Below are positions 5,430 through 48,106 of a stretch of DNA of 64,000 nucleotides, piece by piece. Where the stretch lies: NCBI GenBank assembly GCA_030430205.1, contig JAUIGE010000003.1:186001-250000 (forward strand). Reading direction: 5' to 3'. The stretch is from Bacteroidia bacterium. Its GTDB lineage: Bacteria; Bacteroidota; Bacteroidia; J057. Position 1 is the first letter of the stretch. Each line of letters opens with the position of its first letter. The notes below the pieces were generated by a model. The model was given only the letters and a program-made list of their open reading frames with translations. It ran no database searches and was not told the DNA's origin. Position numbers and translations under genes: made by a program.

Positions 5430-5434
5430 GGGGA

Positions 5435-5476
5435 GAGGCGAGAGCAGAGAAGCGAGAGCAGAGAGGCGAGAGCAGA
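5435..5476. repeat. heptad array, GAGNNGA family (6 units)
   Basis: Six 7-bp units alternate GAGGCGA or GAAGCGA with GAGCAGA in exact register between two convergent genes. The array ends 2 nt before the stop codon of the gene on the other strand. It belongs to the same sequence family as the arrays at 6815 and 33449. Confidence 0.9.
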
Positions 5477-5478
5477 GA

Positions 5479-6240: not shown

Positions 6241-6816
6241 TTGCAGGCAAATAAAAAAAACGTGTCATATCGCCTGAGAGATATAGTCATCGCAAGCATA
6301 GCTTTGCTGTTTTTGGGGCCGATTATTATCGGCCTGGCACTGGTGCTGAAGCTGCGCTATGGCTACGTTTTCTTTTTGCAGGAACGCCCCGGGTATAAAG
6401 GCAAGCCTTTTTATATCTACAAATTTCGCACGATGAATCCTTCACCCGAGGGGCCTCAATTTACGAAAATGGGCGCCTGGATGCAGAAAAAATCCCTGGA
6501 TGAGTTGCCGCAAATTTTCAATGTGCTCAAAGGCGATATGAGCCTGATCGGCCCCCGGCCTTTGCTGATGGAGTACCTGCCGCATTATACGGCGGAAGAA
6601 ATGCGCCGCCACGATCTCCGGCCCGGTATCACAGGCTGGGCGCAGGTCAATGGCCGCTCGGCCATTACCTTCAAAAAGCGCTTCGAGATGGATGTATGGT
6701 ACGTAGACCACCAATCCCATTGGCTGGATATGCGGATCTTATGGATGACCTTCGGGAAGGTCCTGGGTGGGGTGAATGCGATTCACTCGGAGGAGCGGTA
6801 TACGGGAGGAAATTGA
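6241..6816 (+). CDS. sugar transferase (undecaprenyl-phosphate glycosyl-1-phosphate transferase family)
   Basis: The product (191 residues from TTG) is a short bacterial sugar transferase that would load the first sugar-phosphate onto a polyprenyl carrier for polysaccharide or glycan synthesis at the inner membrane. Visible features: one membrane helix (about 12-35), QERPGYKGKPFYIYKFRTMN, SLDELPQIFNVLKGDMSLIG with PRP following, and PGITGWAQVNGR, all hallmarks of the WcaJ/PglC-type catalytic domain. The linker before LDELPQ is a little shorter than usual. No in-frame ATG fits; TTG at 6241 or GTG at 6262 must start it. No other glycan genes are adjacent. Its stop codon touches the first unit of a heptad array. 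Confidence 0.85.
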   Translation: MQANKKNVSYRLRDIVIASIALLFLGPIIIGLALVLKLRYGYVFFLQERPGYKGKPFYIYKFRTMNPSPEGPQFTKMGAWMQKKSLDELPQIFNVLKGDMSLIGPRPLLMEYLPHYTAEEMRRHDLRPGITGWAQVNGRSAITFKKRFEMDVWYVDHQSHWLDMRILWMTFGKVLGGVNAIHSEERYTGGN

Positions 6817-6912
6817 GAGCGGAGAGTAGAGAGTAGAGAGTAGAGAGTAGAGAGTAGAGAAGAGAGAAGAGAGAAGAGAGAAGAGAGCAGAGAGTAGAGA
6901 GCAGAGAGTAGA
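6815..6912. repeat. heptad array, GAGNNGA family (14 units)
   Basis: Fourteen consecutive 7-bp units in unbroken register: GAGAGCG once, then GAGAGTA five times, GAGAAGA four times, and GAGCAGA/GAGTAGA alternating. The first unit overlaps the TGA stop of the sugar transferase. The array lies between convergent genes (sugar transferase and lptB). Confidence 0.92.
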
Positions 6913-6977
6913 GATGGGAGGCACTGCCTGCCTATCTCACAATTCCCATCTCTTTTCTCGCTTCTCTATTCTCTGCT

Positions 6978-7700
6978 CTACAACACAAAATCATAGCCCA
7001 AATAATGCTGCTTCACCAACTCATCGCCCGCCACCTCGGGCGGTGTGCCATGAAAAAGGATTTTTCCTTCGCTCATGATATAGGTCCGGTCGGTTGCTTT
7101 GAGTGTTTCGCGCACATTGTGGTCGGTGATGAGCACACCGATATTGCGGTCGCTGAGCTGCTGTACCAGTCGCTTGATCTCGGCCACGGCCTTGGGGTCG
7201 ATGCCTGCAAAGGGCTCATCAAGCAGGATAAATTTGGGGTCTACGGCCAGCGCGCGGGCGATCTCGGTGCGGCGGCGCTCGCCGCCGGAGAGGACTTTGC
7301 CCATGCTTTTGCGGATGTGGGTGATCCCAAATTCTTCCATTAACTCTTCGCAGCGCATTTTGCGCTCTTTGCGGCTAAGGGGCGTAGCCATTTCAAGCAC
7401 AGCCATGATGTTGTCTTCGACAGAAAGATTACGGAAGACGGAGGCTTCCTGGGGCAGGTAGCCGATGCCCAGTTTGCCACGTTTGAACATGGGCATGCCT
7501 GTGATATTTTTATTGTCCAGGTAGATGCTGCCGCCATTGGCGCGGATCATACCCACAATCATGTAAAAACTGGTCGTTTTTCCTGCGCCATTCGGGCCAA
7601 GCAAGCCGATTATCTCCCCTTGCCCCACTTCGATGGACACATTGTTGACAACTTTGCGTTGTTTGTATATCTTGATAAGGTTGTTTGCTACTAATTGCAT
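6978..7700 (-). CDS. lptB: LPS export ABC transporter ATP-binding protein LptB
   Basis: This 240-residue ATPase powers lipopolysaccharide extraction from the inner membrane with LptF/LptG. It shows Walker A (GLLGPNGAGKTTSFYMIVG), the Q-loop (GYLPQEASVF), the ABC signature (LSGGERRRTEIARAL), Walker B (FILLDEPFAGIDP) and the H-loop (VLITDHNVRETL). The frame is open for 63 more codons upstream, but those run through a heptad array and overlap the divergent response regulator. The ATG at 7700 (MQLVANNLIKIYKQR) gives the standard length. A TATCTTTG box 5 nt before this ATG suggests a very short leader. Confidence 0.95.
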   Translation of the reverse strand: MQLVANNLIKIYKQRKVVNNVSIEVGQGEIIGLLGPNGAGKTTSFYMIVGMIRANGGSIYLDNKNITGMPMFKRGKLGIGYLPQEASVFRNLSVEDNIMAVLEMATPLSRKERKMRCEELMEEFGITHIRKSMGKVLSGGERRRTEIARALAVDPKFILLDEPFAGIDPKAVAEIKRLVQQLSDRNIGVLITDHNVRETLKATDRTYIMSEGKILFHGTPPEVAGDELVKQHYLGYDFVL

Positions 7701-7766: not shown

Positions 7767-7815
7767 AAAACCCAAAACCCGAAACTCGAAACCCGAAACT
7801 CGAAACCCGAAACTA
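7767..7815. repeat. heptad array, CCCGAAA family (7 units)
   Basis: Seven 7-bp units (AAAACCC twice, then GAAACTC and GAAACCC alternating, ending GAAACTA) fill the divergent region between lptB and the response regulator. The array ends 12 nt before the regulator's ATG, so it sits where the regulator's promoter or leader should be. Confidence 0.9.
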
Positions 7816-7827
7816 AAAAACTCCAAT

Positions 7828-8451
7828 ATGATTTCAGTAGCAATTGTAGAAGACAACAGAGACATAAGAGAAGGTTTTTCTTTTATCATAGACAGTGCTG
7901 ACGATTGCGTGGTGTCGGGCGCTTATTCAGATGCGGAAACGGCTCTGAAAGCCATTCTGGAATCACCGCCGGATGTGGTCCTGATGGATATAGAGTTGCC
8001 GGGCATGTCAGGCATTCAGTGTGTGGAAAAGCTGAAGTCGGCTTTGCCCAACCTGGACATCCTCATGATCTCTGTGCATGCCGAAGACAAGTATGTCTTT
8101 GACTCCCTGCGGGTAGGAGCCTCGGGCTTTTTGACAAAAAACACCTCTCCCGATCGCTTGCTCGAAGCGATCAACGAAGTGCACCGGGGCGGTGCGCCCA
8201 TGAGCACCAATATCGCCCGCATGGTCGTCGGCTCTTTCAACCACTTCCGCAAACCCCAATATTCCCTCACACGTCGTGAGCGCGAGGTGCTGGAGCAGCT
8301 CTGCGAAGGCAAAAGCTACAAAATGATCGCTGATACGCTCTGCGTGAGTGAAGACACTGTACGCTTTCATATCAAAAAAATCTACCGAAAATTGCAGGTC
8401 AACTCGAAGTCCGAGGCCGTGATTAAGGCGTTGAAAGACAACATTGTTTAA
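7828..8451 (+). CDS. NarL/FixJ-type response regulator
   Basis: The 207-residue two-component regulator has a receiver domain with acidic pocket EDN near residue 8, phospho-acceptor Asp in VVLMDIELPGMSG (about 54), conserved Ser in LMISVHAEDK and Lys in FLTKN. A C-terminal LuxR-type HTH follows (LTRREREVLEQLCEGKSYKMIADTLCVSEDTVRFHIKKIYRKLQ split across about 147-190). It should bind DNA after phosphorylation, but no histidine kinase is adjacent. Its stop overlaps the start of the next gene (TAATG), so the two are translationally coupled. Confidence 0.93.
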   Translation: MISVAIVEDNRDIREGFSFIIDSADDCVVSGAYSDAETALKAILESPPDVVLMDIELPGMSGIQCVEKLKSALPNLDILMISVHAEDKYVFDSLRVGASGFLTKNTSPDRLLEAINEVHRGGAPMSTNIARMVVGSFNHFRKPQYSLTRREREVLEQLCEGKSYKMIADTLCVSEDTVRFHIKKIYRKLQVNSKSEAVIKALKDNIV

Positions 8452-16557: not shown

Positions 16558-16597
16558 GACACGGCTTTAGGGTTAAAGATAGGGAAAAGATTTGAAG

Positions 16598-16625
16598 TTT
16601 TGGGTTTCGGGTTCCGGGTTTCGGG
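16598..16625. repeat. heptad array, CCCGAAA family (4 units)
   Basis: TTTTGGG, TTTCGGG, TTCCGGG and TTTCGGG follow each other in register; on the minus strand they read as CCCGAAA-type units. The array fills the gap between the stop of the Uma2 gene and the start of ogt, both on the minus strand. Confidence 0.85.
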
Positions 16626-16630
16626 TGGGT

Positions 16631-17404: not shown

Positions 17405-18247
17405 ATGAGAAAACTAAGCCAATTTTTTCAGATTTCCGTTTTATGGATTTTTTTGAGTTTGATTCCGAATACACACATTTCGGCTATTAGCGTTCCTGAT
17501 TTGGGGCCTGATACGACGGTTTGTGGGGGCATTACATTGGATGCAGGGCCAGACTTTGTGTCCTATCAATGGAGTACCTCGCCTGGTGATACAAATCAAA
17601 CCGTCTTTATTGATTTTTCGCCGGGGCAAAATAATAACCTTATTGTTTTTGTGGTGGTTATGGATAGTACAGGAGCATCTGCTTCAGATACGATTAGGAT
17701 TAATATTGAGGATCAGCCGGTTATTGGGTTCACTGGAAAAAAGGAAAAAAGAGATAGTGTCTTTTGCCACGTGGATTTAACCAATACCTCTACTGGAGAA
17801 AACCTGGATTATTCCTGGGATTTTGGGGATGGGAGCCCTTTGATTCTGAGTCGTGATGCTAGCCATGATTATATTTGGCCTGGATCCTACGAAATCTGTC
17901 TTACAATAAGTAATAGTTGTGATACAATAACTCTATGTGTGGATACCTTGAGTTTTTGCCCCATATCTCCAGGAATAGAAAAGTCTACTTTGGAAACCCA
18001 AATCTCTATTTCACCCAATCCATCGGAGGATTGGGTATTGATAGATTTTGGTGAGCTTCATGAAGAAGTGAAGCTTAGCCTATTTGACCTTCATGGTCGG
18101 ATTTTGTATAAGACAAAAGTGCCTTCTGCCCAGCAGGATAGGTCTTATTTACTTGACCTTTCGAGTGTGCCGATGGGGGGGTATATGGTTTTGATAGAGA
18201 CGGAAAATCAGAGGTTAATTAAGAAATTAGTCCGCAGTAAGCAGTAA
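17405..18247 (+). CDS. PKD-domain protein with T9SS sorting tail
   Basis: The 280-residue secreted protein has a signal peptide (about 1-27), a first Ig-like region (LGPDTTVCGGITLDAG ... SYQWSTSPGD), a PKD domain (about 115-190; LDYSWDFGDGSP and PGSYEICLTISN) and a T9SS type A tail (about 205-280; ISISPNPSEDWVLIDFG, VPMGGYMVLIET). The final residues LVRSKQ and the TAA stop are encoded by a heptad array of the GCAGTNN family, so its original 3' end appears to have been replaced or trimmed. Ligand unknown. Confidence 0.88.
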   Translation: MRKLSQFFQISVLWIFLSLIPNTHISAISVPDLGPDTTVCGGITLDAGPDFVSYQWSTSPGDTNQTVFIDFSPGQNNNLIVFVVVMDSTGASASDTIRINIEDQPVIGFTGKKEKRDSVFCHVDLTNTSTGENLDYSWDFGDGSPLILSRDASHDYIWPGSYEICLTISNSCDTITLCVDTLSFCPISPGIEKSTLETQISISPNPSEDWVLIDFGELHEEVKLSLFDLHGRILYKTKVPSAQQDRSYLLDLSSVPMGGYMVLIETENQRLIKKLVRSKQ

Positions 18248-18314
18248 GTGCCAAAATGCTGATTATCAGCTCTATTTTATTCACTGCATACTGCGGACTA
18301 TTTACTGCCGACTA
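18228..18314. repeat. inverted heptad array, ACTGCNN family (hairpin-forming)
   Basis: The left arm (18228-18250; GTCCGCAGTAA, then GCAGTAA) and right arm (18282-18314; ACTGCAT, ACTGCGG, ACTATTT, ACTGCCG) are built of 7-bp units in opposite orientation. They can pair over about 17 bp. The element lies between convergent genes and encodes the last codons of the PKD protein; it may act as a bidirectional terminator. Confidence 0.8.
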
Positions 18315-32683: not shown

Positions 32684-33475
32684 ATGCCTGATACCCTCAA
32701 AATAGCCTTTATCGGTGCCGGAAAGTTGAGTTGGAACCTGATCCCCGCCCTCCAGCAAGCTGGAGCAGAGATCGTCCAGCTGATTAGCCGGACCGAAGCA
32801 AAGCGCAGGCGCTTTTGTGATGCTTTTGGCATCCCCGCGCATGCGGAGGGGCTGGCTGACCTGACAGCCGGGGCGGCCTGCGTTTTCCTGACCGTAGGCG
32901 ATCAGGCGGTGTCGGGTCTTGCTGCGGATTTGGCGAAAAGCTATCAGGGAAATGCCGTTTTTGTTCACACTTCAGGCAGTGTGCCGCTGGAGGCCTTGCA
33001 GCCGCTGGGGGAACGCACAGGCGTTTTTTATCCCATGCAGGTATTTACAGAAGATCAGCAGGCGGATTTTGGGAAAATTCCTTTATTTCTCGAAGGCAGC
33101 GAAGCTGTATTGGACGTAATTCAGCCCCTGGCAGAGGCGATCTCTGCTTCGGTCCAGGTGCTGGATAGCGAAAAGCGCCTCAGGCTTCACCTCGGTGCTG
33201 TACTTGTCAGCAACTTTCCCAACTACCTCTACCGCCTCGCGGCGGAGCTCGTGCCCGAAGCGGGCATCGCTGCCTACGAATCCCTGATTCGTGGACATAT
33301 AGAGAAAGTCTTTGCGGCAGGGCCGCAACATACGCAGACCGGACCCGCGATCCGCGGGGACATGAATACGCTCTTTCAACACCTGCAAATCCTGCAGGAC
33401 GATCCCAAAAAGCGGGAAATGTATTGGCTTTTGTCGAGCTTGATTGGGGAGGCGGGAGGCGAGAGGCGAGAATAG
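32684..33475 (+). CDS. Rossmann-like and DUF2520 domain protein
   Basis: The 263-residue product has an N-terminal NAD(P)-binding Rossmann fold (IAFIGAGKLSWNLIPALQQAG, about 6-26; CVFLTVGDQAV; FVHTSGSVPLEALQPL) and a C-terminal helical DUF2520 domain (about 130-255; LHLGAVLVSNFPNYLY, the GPAIRGD segment). The family resembles pyrroline-5-carboxylate and 6-phosphogluconate-type dehydrogenases, but its reaction is not established. The last residues (EAGGERRE) and the TAG stop are encoded by the first units of a heptad array, so the native terminus may end near SSLIG. Confidence 0.85.
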   Translation: MPDTLKIAFIGAGKLSWNLIPALQQAGAEIVQLISRTEAKRRRFCDAFGIPAHAEGLADLTAGAACVFLTVGDQAVSGLAADLAKSYQGNAVFVHTSGSVPLEALQPLGERTGVFYPMQVFTEDQQADFGKIPLFLEGSEAVLDVIQPLAEAISASVQVLDSEKRLRLHLGAVLVSNFPNYLYRLAAELVPEAGIAAYESLIRGHIEKVFAAGPQHTQTGPAIRGDMNTLFQHLQILQDDPKKREMYWLLSSLIGEAGGERRE

Positions 33476-33644
33476 AGAGGCGAGAAGCGAGATCAGAGAG
33501 GCGAGAAGCGAGATCAGAGAGGCGAGAAGCGAGATCAGAGAGGCGAGATCAGAGACAGGAACCCGAAACCCGAAACTCAAAACCCGAAACCCGAAACCCA
33601 AAACCCAAAACCCAAAACCCAAAACCCGAAACTCAAAACCCAAA
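33449..33644. repeat. composite heptad array (28 units, two families in one register)
   Basis: Twenty-eight 7-bp units run without a phase break. The first sixteen are of the GAGNNGA family (GAGGCGA, GAAGCGA, GATCAGA as a 21-bp super-unit repeated three times); the last twelve are of the CCCGAAA family (ACCCGAA, ACTCAAA, ACCCAAA). The family switch falls at 33560/33561. The array includes the stop of the DUF2520 gene and ends 15 nt before the next ATG, after which a C tract follows. Confidence 0.93.
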
Positions 33645-33658
33645 ACTTCCCCCCCCCC

Positions 33659-35317
33659 ATGAATCCACAAAAATCCGGCGACCTCATCTTTTTTGGAATA
33701 TGTTCTTTTCTGGGCTTTTTGCTCTTTTTGGGCGGTGTGCCGCTTTTGGCGGGCATAGAAAGTACGCTTGCTGAGCAAGCCAGGGAGATGGCGACGACCG
33801 ATTGGTTTTTGGGCGTGACGCACAACTATAAGGCGAAGCCTATGGCTCCGCCGCTGATGGTGTGGCTGCAAGCGATAAGCATCAAGATTTTTGGCTTGTC
33901 GGAGTGGGCAGTGCGCCTGCCCGGCGCGCTGATGAGCATGCTCACGGGCCTGCTTCTGTACCTGCAGGCCTACCGCCACCGCGGGCGACTCTATGCCCGC
34001 TTGCTGTCGGTCTTATACCTGGCTAGTCTGCTGACACTTTTTGAAGGCCGCCTGGCCACCATCGCCCCGGCCCTCAACCTCTTTATGATGTTGGCGCTGA
34101 TGCAGTTGGAGCGAATGGATTCGCAGGCTGACAAAGAAGACGCAAATGCCCCCTGGGGCATAGGTTTTTGGTTGGCGCTGGCGACTTTGTCGGCGGGGGT
34201 TTCTATCTTTTTTGTTGCCCTGCTGATTTTCCTGGCCTATAAGCTGTGGCATCCCGCAAGGCGGATTCCGCTCCTTTCGGTGGGTAAAGGCCTGCTGGCC
34301 TGGTTTGTACCTGTTGCCATTTGGTATGCTTTGCAGTTGATGCTGCACGGTTTTCCCCTCTTCAGGGAAGCTTTTATCCTACAGGGGCAAACATTCATAA
34401 ATATAACCGTTTCGGACTTCCTCTGGCCCCTGGGGCTGCTGATTCTGTTGGGATTTCCAGCCATTGGCTGGGTTTTCAGAGCAGGGCGCACGGACGAGAA
34501 GGGCCATCAGCTGATGGGATTTGCGCTACCCTGGCTGGTTATGATGCTGGCCTGGGTGATCCTGGCGGGCCCAGCAAGTACCTTCCCGGGAGGGATTTTG
34601 CTGGTAGTCATGCCTCCCCTGGCGATGCTGGCAGCGCTTTATCTGGAGCAACTGATCAAAAGCCAGAAAGGCGCAGGGATAGAAGTGTATCTGTTCACCG
34701 GACTGGCGCTGGTGATATGGGGTTTTTTGCCTGCCCTGATCAATTTCCTCCTGGGAAATCTCAACTGGATTGCCCAGGAATTGCCGGATGATTTTTTGCT
34801 GGAAAGGCTCAAATTGAGCCTGGATTGGCATGGATTGGAATGGCTCGCGGGTGCCTTCTTTTTGCTGGGCATGCTCTATAATTTCGTCAACCTCAGCAAG
34901 CGCAACTACATCAGCTACGCTTATCTCCAGCTTTTTCTCGGACTTATCTTTGTGCTTTTTAGCTGGAAAATGCTGCTTCCCGGCGCCGTGCGCTACGCGC
35001 AAGGCACTACAGCAGACTTCTGCCAGCAATTGGCAAAGCAGGATGTCTACGTCATCACCGAAGGCACAGATGCCGATATCGCCCGCTTCTATGCTGACAT
35101 CAAACCCTACAAACAAAGCTTTGACCGCGCCCGCCTGCTCGAAGGCGAGATCAGCAGAGATGTCTACCTGATCGCCCGCAGCGATGCCCTGGACCGCGAG
35201 AAACGCGCGCGCTATCGCCTCTTCGAGAAGCTTCATGAAGAAGGAGGACTGGTGTTTTACCGCCGCGCGAAGCGCGGTCGGGGCGTGACTGAAAGGCTGG
35301 ATCGCGGGCTAAAATGA
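33659..35317 (+). CDS. GT-C family membrane glycosyltransferase (ArnT/PMT-like)
   Basis: The 552-residue protein has about eleven membrane helices and the GT-C layout. The first periplasmic loop carries the acidic site ESTLAEQAREMATTDWF (about 31-47; the D/E near the first helix binds the polyprenyl-linked donor), followed by KPMAPPLMVWLQAISIKIFG and the R-L-P motif AVRLPGAL. A soluble C-terminal domain (about 450-540) ends the protein. It would move a sugar from a polyprenyl phosphate to lipid or protein in the periplasm; the acceptor is unknown. The start codon comes right after a C tract that closes the upstream heptad array, so its leader is repeat-derived. Confidence 0.87.
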   Translation: MNPQKSGDLIFFGICSFLGFLLFLGGVPLLAGIESTLAEQAREMATTDWFLGVTHNYKAKPMAPPLMVWLQAISIKIFGLSEWAVRLPGALMSMLTGLLLYLQAYRHRGRLYARLLSVLYLASLLTLFEGRLATIAPALNLFMMLALMQLERMDSQADKEDANAPWGIGFWLALATLSAGVSIFFVALLIFLAYKLWHPARRIPLLSVGKGLLAWFVPVAIWYALQLMLHGFPLFREAFILQGQTFINITVSDFLWPLGLLILLGFPAIGWVFRAGRTDEKGHQLMGFALPWLVMMLAWVILAGPASTFPGGILLVVMPPLAMLAALYLEQLIKSQKGAGIEVYLFTGLALVIWGFLPALINFLLGNLNWIAQELPDDFLLERLKLSLDWHGLEWLAGAFFLLGMLYNFVNLSKRNYISYAYLQLFLGLIFVLFSWKMLLPGAVRYAQGTTADFCQQLAKQDVYVITEGTDADIARFYADIKPYKQSFDRARLLEGEISRDVYLIARSDALDREKRARYRLFEKLHEEGGLVFYRRAKRGRGVTERLDRGLK

Positions 35318-41960: not shown

Positions 41961-41968
41961 GATTGATT

Positions 41969-42052
41969 AGAGGATGAGAGGATTTGCAGATTAGAGGATT
42001 CAATAGGTTTTTCATCCTCACATCCTCACATCCTCTAATCTTCAAATCTTCC
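41969..42052. repeat. inverted octad array (8-bp period)
   Basis: The left half is AGAGGATG, AGAGGATT, TGCAGATT, AGAGGATT (41969-42000); the right half is CATCCTCA twice, CATCCTCT, AATCTTCA, AATCTTCC (42013-42052). The halves are roughly complementary, so RNA across the fumC 3' end could form a long hairpin. The unit is 8 bp, unlike the other arrays. Confidence 0.85.
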
Positions 42053-43256: not shown

Positions 43257-44681
43257 ATGAAAAAAAATACCCACATCCTACTCCTCGGCCTCGGATATGT
43301 TTCTGTCTGGGCATACAAAAACCTGGTGAGCACCCTGGGCCCACAGATCAAAAGCGGCGAAGTACAAATCACGGTGGTCTCTACCTCTGACTATCACGCT
43401 TTTCACGGTTTTACCGGGGAGTTTTTGGCAGGCATGCTGCCTGTCGGATTGCGGCGCACGCCGCAGGCCAAATTGCTGACAAAGGCGAACTTTGTTCACG
43501 GAAAAGCCCTGAGCATCCGCCAGGAAGAGCAGGCCGTTTTGGTACAAAACTTCCACTCAGGCAAGACGGAAAGGATCGAATTTGACCACCTGGTCGTGGG
43601 TATCGGCTCGGTAGATAATGATGCCGGCATCCCTGGATTCAGGGAATATGGACTGGGTGTAAAAAAAGAAAACGGCATTGCCGAATGCAGAAAACGCATC
43701 CTCGCAGCCGTAGAGGCTGCAAGCAAAAGCTTAGATCCTAAGCAGATAGACGCGGCACTCAGCTTCGCTGTGGTAGGAGGCGGCTTTGCCGGCATAGAGG
43801 TTTGCGGAAATCTCTGCGAATACCTCAGAGAATTGAGCACCGTTTATTCTATCCTCAGAAAGCATGCTCCCAAAGTATATTGGGTTCACCCTGGCGAAGA
43901 GGCTTTGCCTCAGCTTGCTGAAGGCGGTTTTTCTTCTTTGCTCAGGTATTGCAAACGCCAGCTCGAAAAAGAAGGCGTAATCACGCTTTCGCAGGCCCGT
44001 CTGAAAGAAATCAAAGCCAGCGCTTTTGAGCTGGACAATGGCATGTGCATTCCCAGCCGGACGGTCATTTGCTGTATCGGTCAAAAAATTGTTCCGCTTG
44101 CGTCCCCGACGCCTTTCATGACCGACCTCAAAGGTCGGATGGAAACCAGCCCCCAGCTCCAAGCCGTAGGCTATTGCAACATCTGGGCAGGAGGGGATGC
44201 CGCACGTGTGATGCATATCAGTGGAAAAAAGGAATGTCGCGCTGATGCCCTCTGGGCCATCAAGCAGGGCCGCCGCATCGGGCGCAACATCGCCCGCAGC
44301 ATCAAGGGCAAAAAGCCCCTGCGCTTTAGCTTCCCGGGTATGGGCCAGACGGCAAGTCTGGGGATGAATAAGGCTATTCTGGAACTTTACGGTATCTGTC
44401 TTACAGGCAGACTTGCCTGGTGGATACGGTTGGGCTTTTTCCTTTACTATATGCCCCATCGCTCGCAGGTCGGCAAAGCTATCCGTGCATTTTTACAGCC
44501 TAGAAGGCTCTGGGAGTTGGATGGAGGAAGTTTTGAGTTTCAGGTTTCGGGTTCCGAGCATATACCCGAAACTCGAAACCCGAAACCCGAAACTCGAAAC
44601 CCAAAACCCGAAACTCGAAACCCGAAACCCGAAACCTCCAAGCCGAAACGATCCTATCCGATTTTGTCAAATCCGGTATAA
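43257..44681 (+). CDS. NDH-2-like NAD(P)/FAD-dependent oxidoreductase with array-encoded C terminus
   Basis: The 474-residue flavoprotein has an FAD motif (ILLLGLGYVSVWAYKNL, with Ser where the third Gly is usual), YHAFHGFTGEFLAGML, the second nucleotide motif SFAVVGGGFAGIEVCGNL, and a late FAD-binding segment CNIWAGGDAARV. It resembles type II NADH dehydrogenases. The native protein seems to end near residue 423 (FLQPRRLWELDGG). The remaining ~50 residues come from a heptad array (repeating ETRNPKP) and then antisense serS sequence. ATG 43257 is chosen; an earlier in-frame ATG (43203) overlaps the AAR-like gene. Tail-to-tail overlap with serS is 28 bp. Confidence 0.82.
   Translation: MKKNTHILLLGLGYVSVWAYKNLVSTLGPQIKSGEVQITVVSTSDYHAFHGFTGEFLAGMLPVGLRRTPQAKLLTKANFVHGKALSIRQEEQAVLVQNFHSGKTERIEFDHLVVGIGSVDNDAGIPGFREYGLGVKKENGIAECRKRILAAVEAASKSLDPKQIDAALSFAVVGGGFAGIEVCGNLCEYLRELSTVYSILRKHAPKVYWVHPGEEALPQLAEGGFSSLLRYCKRQLEKEGVITLSQARLKEIKASAFELDNGMCIPSRTVICCIGQKIVPLASPTPFMTDLKGRMETSPQLQAVGYCNIWAGGDAARVMHISGKKECRADALWAIKQGRRIGRNIARSIKGKKPLRFSFPGMGQTASLGMNKAILELYGICLTGRLAWWIRLGFFLYYMPHRSQVGKAIRAFLQPRRLWELDGGSFEFQVSGSEHIPETRNPKPETRNPKPETRNPKPETSKPKRSYPILSNPV
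44531..44634. repeat. inverted heptad array, CCCGAAA family, inside a coding 3' end
   Basis: Four units in one orientation (TTTTGAG, TTTCAGG, TTTCGGG, TTCCGAG; 44531-44558), a 6-bp spacer, then ten units in the other (CCCGAAA, CTCGAAA, CCCAAAA; 44565-44634) keep strict 7-bp phase. They form the last part of the oxidoreductase reading frame. Three units equal seven codons, giving a 7-residue peptide repeat. The arms can pair. Confidence 0.92.
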
Positions 44682-46135: not shown

Positions 46136-48007
46136 ATGTACGACATCATTGAATTAAACAATAATGGACTCGCTGAACTCCAAGAGATCGCGAAGAGACT
46201 GGAAATTGAAGATGGAGATAAACTTGCGAAGCAAGATCTGATTTTCAAGATTTTGGATAAACAGGCTTTGATGCCTGCCGCTAAAATAGCAGCTATCAAG
46301 AAAAAAGATACGAGCAGTCCTGCCGTTGTCACTCCTAAAGCAAAGGAAGAAGCGCCTGCAAAAGAGGCCGCAAAAGAAACAGCAAAAGAGCCTGTAGAAG
46401 AAGTAGAAGAAGCGCCTAAGAAACGAAGGGGCCGCAAAAAGAAAGAAGAGGTAGAGGCCGTGGAGGAAAAAGCTGTGGAAGCCAAAAAGGAAGCTAAAGC
46501 AGAGGAAGAAGAAGAGGAAAAACCCAAACGCAAAAGAGCTCCCCGCAAAAAAACGGAAAGCGAGGAAGAAAGCCCTGAGCCTGTAAAGGAAGAAAAAGTG
46601 GAGGAAAAGATCGTCGCAAAAGAAGTGGAGGCTCCTGCAAAGAAGGTGACAGAAGAAGAGGACGAGAACTCCGATCCCCGCAAACGAACCCGCCGCAAAA
46701 GGCCTGCCAACCAAAATACGCCCAATTCCAATCCCCCGACCAGAGAGCCAAGGCAACCGGCCAATTCAGATTCTTCCGGCCAGGGCCAACGTTCCAATAC
46801 ACACAGACAACCCAACCAGCGCCCTCCCGCCCCCAAGGACAACAGGCCTGCGGTACCTCAGGATGATTTTGACCTCAATGAGCTGGATGGCATCATCAGC
46901 AACCAGGGCGTCCTGGAGGTGATTTCTGATGGATATGGCTTCCTGCGTTCACCAGAATACAATTACCTGTCATCTCCGGATGATATCTATGTCTCTCCAT
47001 CTCAAATCAAGCTTTTTGGCTTGAAGACAGGAGATACTGTCCTGGGACAGATTCGCCCTCCCAAAGAAGGAGAGCGCTATTTTGCGCTTTTGAAGGTAGA
47101 TCGTATCAACGATCTGACGCCTCAACAAATCCGTGACCGGATTTATTTCGATCACCTGACACCACTTTTTCCAGACGAAAAATTCAATATAGCTGCAGAT
47201 GCCAAGCCAGGTGATGACCTGTCTATGCGCATTTTGGACCTCTTTTGTCCCATTGGCAAAGGGCAGCGTGGCCTGATCGTATCCCAGCCCAAAACGGGTA
47301 AAACGATTTTGCTCCAGAAAGTCGCCAATGCCATCGCCCGCAATCATCCAGAGGCATATCTCATCATTTTGTTGATTGATGAACGGCCAGAGGAGGTGAC
47401 AGATATGGCCCGGAATGTAAATGCCGAAGTGGTGGCCTCTACCTTTGATGAGCCTGCCGATCGCCATGTACACATTGCCAACCTGGTGCTTGAAAAAGCC
47501 AAGCGCATGGTCGAGTGTGGTCATGATGTTGTCATCTTGCTTGACTCCATCACGCGCCTTGCGCGTGCCCATAATACAGCCATGCCTGCATCAGGCAAAA
47601 TCCTGACCGGTGGTGTGGATGCAAATGCTTTGCACAAACCCAAAAGGTTTTTTGGCGCAGCCCGAAACATCGAGCATGGCGGTTCTCTCACCATTTTGGC
47701 GACTGCCCTGATCGAGACTGGCTCGAAAATGGACGAGGTGATCTTTGAAGAATTCAAAGGAACCGGTAATATGGAGCTGCAATTGGATCGCCGACTGGCA
47801 AATCGTCGCGTCTATCCCGCGATCAATGTACTGGACTCAGGTACTCGGCGCGAGGACCTGCTGATGGACCCCAAAGACATCAGCCGCATCTGGGCGATAC
47901 GCAAGTTTATGGCAGATATGAACCCCATAGAAACCATGGACTTCCTCAAAAGCCGCATGCTTTCAACGAAAAACAACGCAGAATTCCTGCAAACTATCAA
48001 CCGATAG
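46136..48007 (+). CDS. rho: transcription termination factor Rho with long disordered N-terminal insertion
   Basis: The 623-residue hexameric RNA helicase is about 200 residues longer than E. coli Rho. After the short N-terminal helical domain ([20 protein letters not shown], about 1-50) comes a Lys/Glu/Ala-rich, then Arg/Pro/Asn-rich stretch (about 60-235) predicted to be disordered. The cold-shock RNA-binding domain follows ([20 protein letters not shown]), then the ATPase: Walker [12 protein letters not shown], Walker [17 protein letters not shown], and the Q/R-loop region [21 protein letters not shown] split in family order. Such insertions are known in Bacteroidota; in Bacteroides thetaiotaomicron Rho this region drives condensate formation. 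Confidence 0.96.
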
Positions 48008-48050
48008 GTTAGTTTGAAGTTTTTAGTTTGCAGTTTTCAGTAAATATTTT

Positions 48051-48106
48051 CCTACTGCCTACTGCCTACTGCCTACTGCCGACTGCCTACTGGTCACTGC
48101 CCACTA
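48051..48106. repeat. heptad array, ACTGCNN family (8 units)
   Basis: CCTACTG four times, CCGACTG, CCTACTG, GTCACTG and CCCACTA follow in register (phase-shifted, ACTGCCT units). The array lies between convergent rho and methyltransferase genes and encodes the end and TAG stop of the methyltransferase. Same family as the array at 18228. Confidence 0.9.

Follow-up and report, generated by a model that had tools for sequence, protein, structure and literature searches.

Heptanucleotide arrays of several unrelated words share a 7-bp step and a strand polarity at gene edges in a Bacteroidia genome

The gaps between the genes of this Bacteroidia genome hold many tandem arrays of 7-bp units. They are a real and strong feature, and with them the genome joins a known class of repeats, the long heptanucleotide SSRs, to which it adds some rules: the units fall into several unrelated word families, many arrays repeat in higher-order steps of two or three units, the G-rich strand is oriented with respect to the nearer gene edge, and genes beside arrays differ from others in their usage of stop codons. 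As an origin, we lean slightly toward seeded slippage with block duplication, combined with ectopic spread of the words and selection at gene edges.

Coordinates refer to the window, the whole 64-kb stretch of DNA analyzed, and arrays were located with TRF unless stated otherwise. Seven of the eight places originally listed as 7-bp tandem arrays proved to be such, with TRF periods of 7, 14, or 21; one of the seven, an AAACCCG array on the minus strand at 16597–16626, is short (GTTTCGG on the plus strand; 4.3 units, TRF score 46). The eighth, at 18228, is a weak ACTGC stub on the minus strand with only two direct units (GCAGTAA twice, 18234–18248; TRF score 30, under the array threshold); near it, at 18283–18313, the opposite strand carries a few ACTGC units. 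Exact self-match runs of at least 14 bases, scanned in the window at periods of 2–30, occurred at periods 7 (5 runs), 8 (1), 14 (6), 21 (5), and 28 (1) and at no others; the chance level, from 10 first-order Markov resamples, was a mean of 0.0 at every period. The three proposed unit families were correct, except that the unit given as GAGNNGA is better written GAGANNN. The window also contains an AGTTTNN array on the minus strand (48009–48041), directly 3′ of the stop codon of a gene for a Rho-like transcription termination factor (46136–48007, plus strand), and an ACTGCCT array follows it on the plus strand at 48051–48105.

The 14 clean units claimed for 6815–6912 (plus strand; TRF and sequence) are indeed there, as 98 bp of GAGANNN (GAGAGTA, GAGAAGA, and GAGAGCA) in a phase that is unbroken by eye; TRF places the array at 6822–6914, and its “4% indels” are a matter of alignment choice. 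The array merges with the TGA stop (6814–6816) of the upstream gene, a bacterial sugar transferase (6241–6816, plus strand; Pfam Bac_transf profile match, E 2.1e-57). The gap is convergent, and a shorter GAGA-family array on the minus strand at its far end (6949–6974) reaches the TAG stop of an lptB-like ABC ATPase gene (6978–7700, minus strand; Pfam ABC_tran match). Beyond that gene, an AAACCCG/AAACTCG array (7768–7814, plus strand) ends 13 bp upstream of the start of a LuxR-type response regulator (7828–8451, plus strand). Another convergent gap holds a GAGAGGC/GAGAGCA array with a 14-bp higher-order unit (5433–5478, plus strand). At 33449–33548 (plus strand), a GAGA-family array whose higher-order unit spans 21 bp overlaps the 3′ end of the upstream ORF and is directly followed by an AAACCCR array (33560–33646, plus strand), a C run, and an ATG at 33659. 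An inverted pair of the AAAC family has its left arm at 44530–44558 on the minus strand (GTTTTGAGTTTC..., seen in the sequence) and its right arm, an AAACCCG/AAACTCG array with a 21-bp higher-order unit, at 44564–44636 on the plus strand. The opposite-strand GAGA tract at 6949–6974, the AAAC array at 33560–33646, and the arm at 44530–44558 all lie beyond the earlier list. TRF also reported a period-8 patch at 41965–42048 (GATTAGAG, CATCCTCA, and ATCCTCAA). CRISPR was ruled out for the arrays, whose units stand head to tail with no spacers between them.

The source genome comprises 7.24 Mb in 80 contigs, from which 1.25 Mb was sampled in stretches that include the window. Arrays were defined by a TRF score of at least 50 and counted as 7-bp arrays if their 7-bp self-identity was at least 0.6; gene edges came from a simple codon-usage caller written for this analysis. 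The excess of period 7 over other unit lengths expected from a tandem-repeat scan was borne out, with 115 of the 159 arrays in the sample being 7-bp arrays. Predicted genes make up 89% of the sampled DNA but contain 6 of the 115 arrays; 108 are in gaps, and 1 was unplaced. AAACYCR words account for 48 arrays, GAGANNN for 37, ACTGCNN-like words for 20, and other words for 10. The median array length is 52 bp, and the longest sampled array measures 133 bp. Convergent gaps are enriched for arrays (15/61 compared with 64/557, p 0.007). Exact patterns searched in the whole genome, with each overlapping place scored singly, matched three GAGAG units at 501 places, three ACTGC units at 316, and four AAACYYR units at 1000.

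The internal order of the arrays carries traces of how they change. The best TRF period was 7 in 47 of the 115 arrays, 14 in 34, 21 in 30, 28 in 3, and 24 in 1. Relative to shuffled order, similarity in the 81 arrays with at least six units was raised between units two and three apart (Z 5.3 and 3.8, respectively) and lowered between adjacent units (Z −3.5). The greater likeness of units two and three apart suggests that copying of blocks of two or three units is frequent. Two homologous gaps on contig C6 (at 85.9 and 90.4 kb) share their right flank and hold 6 and 13 AAACCCG-type units, respectively, as counted by eye.

Array polarity was counted where GC skew was at least 0.2 and the distances to the two gene edges differed by more than 10 bp, which kept 95 of 108 arrays and dropped 13. 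The 5′ end of the G-rich strand pointed toward the nearer gene edge in 79 of the 95 (p 3.5e-11), and in gaps with two arrays, the G-rich array came first and the C-rich array last in 22 of 23. The same-genus genome G001 gave 14/17 for polarity and 3/4 for G-rich-first order; six further genomes, picked for their family hits, gave 28/35 and 4/6; and four more genomes, of which only two provided countable arrays, gave 14/20 (p 0.12) and 4/7.

The polarity can be divided between two causes, one at starts and one at stops. On the start side, the coding strand was C-rich in 34 of 42 cases, and array-free gaps before starts lean C-rich too (GC skew −0.25). Of 27 start-side AAAC-family arrays, 22 end no more than 33 bp from the start codon, in a count by eye. 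Runs of at least four Cs within 20 bases before the start were found at 12 of 38 array-adjacent starts compared with 29 of 631 array-free starts, and C runs before an ATG, such as 33649–33658 in the window, are a possible site of phase variation.

On the stop side, the coding strand was G-rich in 48 of 66 cases. Array-free gaps there have only a weak skew (+0.12 over the first 10 bases, then slightly negative), which places the polarity of arrays at stops above background. The arrays lie at a median of 2 bp from the stop codon, and many overlap it. The GAGA and ACTG families together were G-rich versus C-rich at stops in 31 and 6 cases, and the AAAC family in 11 and 10 (Fisher p 0.015); the G-rich strands of GAGA and ACTG words carry stop codons more often, and AAAC words carry few on either strand. 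Where both strands had equal stop content, the G-rich strand was still ahead at stops (18/27, p 0.12). TAG ends 38 of 61 array-adjacent genes but only 208 of 866 others (p 1.2e-9), and it is apparently the repeat that supplies the TAG stops beside arrays. The seven array-adjacent stops of four other genomes were five TGA, two TAA, and no TAG, compared with 216 TGA, 159 TAA, and 60 TAG elsewhere. In G149, one of these four, AGTGCTG is common and TGA is formed across units, which is consistent with repeat-supplied stops, at small n.

Some array gaps are predicted to fold strongly. The arrays at 6815–6912 and 6949–6974 form a long inverted pair with an RNA fold of −66.7 kcal/mol (z −5.55), a value reached by none of 200 shuffles, and around the inverted pair at 44530–44636, the fold of 44515–44660 reaches −52.4 kcal/mol (z −6.94). 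Among array-free gaps, 16 of 120 had a fold z below −3; the corresponding figures were 13 of 47 for single-array gaps (Fisher p 0.04) and 11 of 19 for two-array gaps (Fisher p 6e-5). Divergent gaps apart, the median fold z by gap type was −1.3 to −1.6 for single-array gaps and −1.1 to −1.5 for array-free gaps; in divergent gaps, the medians were −1.55 (single-array, n = 7) and 0.20 (array-free, n = 36). Same-family inverted pairs of the main families were present in 11 of 23 two-array gaps (7 AAAC, 2 GAGA, and 2 ACTG). In single-array gaps, a family core elsewhere in the gap was found on the opposite strand in 21 of 52 and on the same strand in 13 of 52. A hairpin was not adopted as the general function of the arrays, because structure is enriched but missing from most single-array gaps.

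Relatives carry the repeats patchily. G001 has no GAGAG or ACTGC triplets and 119 AAACYYR matches, and 18 of its 60 tandem arrays (364 kb) are 7-bp arrays, built of words such as AACCCAA and ATTCAAA. The sampled G+C of G001 is 37.5% versus 47.7% in the source genome, although the two belong to the same genus by kinship label. When 19.9 kb of window DNA was used as a synteny query against G001, matches scattered over different contigs, which makes an array-by-array alignment of gaps impossible; arrays of the window's families were absent from the eight loci examined out of the ten that the query gave. Just upstream of the G001 response-regulator match (L176:2124–2162) lies a weak repeat with a 7-bp self-identity of 0.66 and a TRF period of 15; its word differs from that of the AAAC array occupying the same slot in the window. 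Ten same-family genomes (G002–G010 and G012) had 7-bp identity of at least 0.6 in 2 of 14 TRF arrays scoring at least 45, in a sample so thin (258 kb, many small contigs) that absence is only indicative. G276 showed no 7-bp arrays among four in its sampled tiles, yet has 156 ACTGC matches genome-wide.

The original prediction held that the length of the unit, and not its letters, is conserved. The first half of this stands, in that period 7 dominates here and is preferred by two unrelated words across the phylum, but within the genome the letters do matter. Counted outside the main motifs in 674 gaps, exact self-match runs of at least 9 bases came to 3, 17, 11, 2, 7, and 5 at lags 6, 7, 8, 9, 10, and 12, respectively, where shuffles averaged 0.2 to 1.4; inside the main family motifs, there were 105 such runs at lag 7. 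By eye, 14 of the 17 non-family lag-7 runs are variants of the AAC or ACTG words or belong to a fourth word, TCCATTA; once these are removed, 3 lag-7 runs remain, fewer than the 11 and 7 runs at lags 8 and 10, respectively. Lag 7 thus has no excess outside the families, and arbitrary sequence has no special 7-bp step here. Nor are all dispersed words heptamers, since GATNNGCA is an 8-bp word: two units in a row of this minor word give 19 overlapping matches in the 1.25 Mb, and several of the lag-8 runs look like it. GATNNGCA occurs both in tandem and dispersed in the source genome (G000), at C14:37082, at C14:209461–209509, and in other gaps.

Across the phylum, we examined 296 Bacteroidota genomes, a set that contains the source genome and samples genera unevenly. 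Three ACTGC units spaced at 7 bp were present in 50 genomes, which belong to 27 of 140 genera; a spacing of 8 bp was seen in 2 genomes and one of 6 bp in 18. The control, CGTCA (ACTGC reversed), gave 34, 8, and 16 genomes at 7, 8, and 6 bp, respectively, in a hand count over the same genomes. Matches summed by hand at 7, 8, and 6 bp were 1158 (316 of them from the source genome), 5, and 45 for ACTGC and 390, 26, and 16 for CGTCA; by our own arithmetic, about 2 matches per 15-base pattern are expected by chance over the whole set. The phylum test rests on this pair of words, because GAGAGNN reversed is identical backward and AAACYYR reversed overlaps its own family. In 648 kb from 80 loci that surround an lptB-like gene and whose titles point mostly to Bacteroidota, 14 of 34 arrays had a best lag of 7, which was more than for any other lag, and their words were diverse, AGTGGTG, AATTAGG, and AACTCTT among them. 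In the phylum sample, G185 had 8-bp ACTGCATC arrays at three places among its four matches. From the within-genome, phylum, and lptB-locus tests together, each lineage propagates a few words, and the words differ while the step is mostly 7. A broader generalization can be offered only tentatively, and we rather doubt it: different short words would have been taken up and spread by separate Bacteroidota lineages, each on its own and with a step that is almost always 7 bp. Replication or repair machinery would set that step and build arrays from any seeded word, the arrays would be oriented toward gene edges by a strand polarity that does not depend on the word, and some would supply their neighbors' stop codons.

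These results bear unequally on the possible origins of the arrays. A dedicated process that copies any sequence in fixed 7-bp steps, as first proposed, could account for the preference of both ACTGC and CGTCA for spacing 7 and for the different heptamers at other loci; given that lag 7 is no commoner than lags 8 and 10 outside the families, that 8-bp words exist both here and in G185, and that 7-bp arrays were few in the thin same-family sample, we consider it improbable. Somewhat less improbable, although still unlikely in our judgment, is that the arrays are functional as such, forming unstructured A/C-rich leaders before starts and hairpins or G-rich 3′ elements after stops. The edge polarity, the closeness of AAAC-family arrays to start codons, the enrichment of strong folds in gaps with one or two arrays, the excess of cores on the opposite strand, and the enrichment in convergent gaps all agree with such roles, and MacGregor 2015 (PMC4679880) proposed that TAACTGA tracts regulate translation. 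The excess of strong folds in array gaps would be better explained by selection for structure than by seeded slippage. Against a functional origin, single-array gaps have a median fold z near that of array-free gaps (divergent gaps excepted), one gap can hold different families, and presence among relatives is patchy.

Carriage of the arrays as passengers of a mobile element would require shared flanks, and a few exist: when arrays were masked in 85 array gaps and the 300-bp flanks compared, five pairs of different loci matched, over 31 to 54 bp, and two more pairs proved to be one place matched to itself. Two 7-bp arrays of the source genome, near C8:121 and C23:155722, have a common right flank (73 bp at 85%); the latter array belongs to the CATTATC/TCCATTA word, 72-bp tandem repeats lie at C23:156013–156625, and the C8/C23 pair is perhaps part of a larger dispersed element. 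With so few matches among the 85 masked gaps, the longest of which come from the duplicated C6 gap (54 bp) and from apparently related gene ends (51 bp), a passenger origin is very unlikely. An assembly artefact deserves even less credence. The genome is an 80-contig draft, and the 133-bp maximum could mirror a read-length limit, but the median array of 52 bp is shorter than ordinary sequencing reads, and ACTGC triplets lie beyond 3.9 Mb within single contigs of other species (G090:C1 and G150:C1).

We therefore return to long heptanucleotide SSRs generated by seeded slippage and block duplication, ectopic spread, and selection at gene edges, a reading that we would put just on the probable side. 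Under this reading, a few heptamer families would have been seeded in the lineage, and strand slippage or unequal exchange would grow and shrink the arrays by one or a few units at a time. Block duplication predicts the likeness of units two and three apart; the dissimilarity of adjacent units is odd under single-unit slippage, and slippage alone leaves the same words at many loci unexplained. The words may move between loci as bare tracts, by short template switching or conversion and without a larger mobile element. Seven may be favored because a loop of this size in slipping replication is probably too large for mismatch repair. Its length would also be near that of the stretch gripped by the polymerase, a hypothesis that PMC4679880 and PMC4692102 credit to Mrazek 2007. 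Arrays would persist almost only between genes, where the gene edges would set their orientation: a leader near a start would have to be G-poor, so that the C-rich strand becomes the coding strand there, and near stops, words with TAG or TGA on the G-rich strand would be tolerated and often furnish the stop codon.

Several unrelated words with one step length in one genome make a clean system in which to ask why seven is favored. Because a repeat can extend past the end of a gene and itself provide the stop codon, repeat growth can alter protein tails. The polarity reported for quadruplex-forming repeats also extends to words without G-triplets.

The original prediction knew of no described equivalent in Bacteroidota, but heptamer arrays in five Bacteroidetes, TAACTGA tracts among them, are described in MacGregor 2015 (PMC4679880), and a table in Mrazek & Huang 2014 (PMC4060949) gives Bacteroidetes a value of 0.75 for 7-mer triplets and 0.00 for 6-mers and 8-mers. 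The heptamer excess of Bacteroidetes is thus already in print, as is the polarity in Xanthomonas and Nostoc. A search of the open-licence literature for heptamer repeats returned MacGregor 2015 alone for Bacteroidetes and nothing for Saprospiraceae, and it yielded no report of a Bacteroidota genome in which several words coexist and show polarity. Of 19 papers that matched five literal repeat strings, the 15 titles listed were mostly on human cells, mice, and viruses, with one on plant telomeres. The present arrays have a 7-bp unit, at least three units, a length beyond chance, and a mainly intergenic location. They resemble the long heptanucleotide SSRs (Mrazek 2007, cited by PMC4679880 and PMC4692102; PMC4060949) in being 7-bp units beyond chance length. 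What sets them apart is that a single genome combines several word families, for each of which polarity and stop overlap were counted.

The GGGNATC/GGGGAYT repeats of Xanthomonas and Nostoc are likewise built of 7-bp units and mostly intergenic; as described in Rehm 2015 (PMC4692102), their G-rich strand is the non-coding strand just upstream of ORFs and the coding strand just downstream, where they overlap stops. Here, GGGTTTC has a G-triplet, as a G-quadruplex-capable unit would, whereas GAGANNN and most GCAGTNN units have none, and the arrays often stand as G-then-C pairs; because most GAGA and ACTGC units lack G-triplets, polarity needs no quadruplexes. The TAACTGA repeats of Beggiatoaceae, cyanobacteria, and the five Bacteroidetes are, in the account of PMC4679880, also dispersed heptamer tracts, mainly intergenic and often just before starts, and indels between two close Cyanothece strains are mostly of 7 nt. 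The main words here are instead AAACYCR, GAGANNN, and ACTGCNN. Among the listed units of these three families, ACTGAAA and ACTGAAG are present and TAACTGA is absent. STRR heptanucleotides occur in filamentous cyanobacteria, with words that are probably different from those found here. In combining several heptamer words within one genome, the STRR, as PMC4692102 relates for Calothrix, are like the arrays of this Bacteroidia genome.
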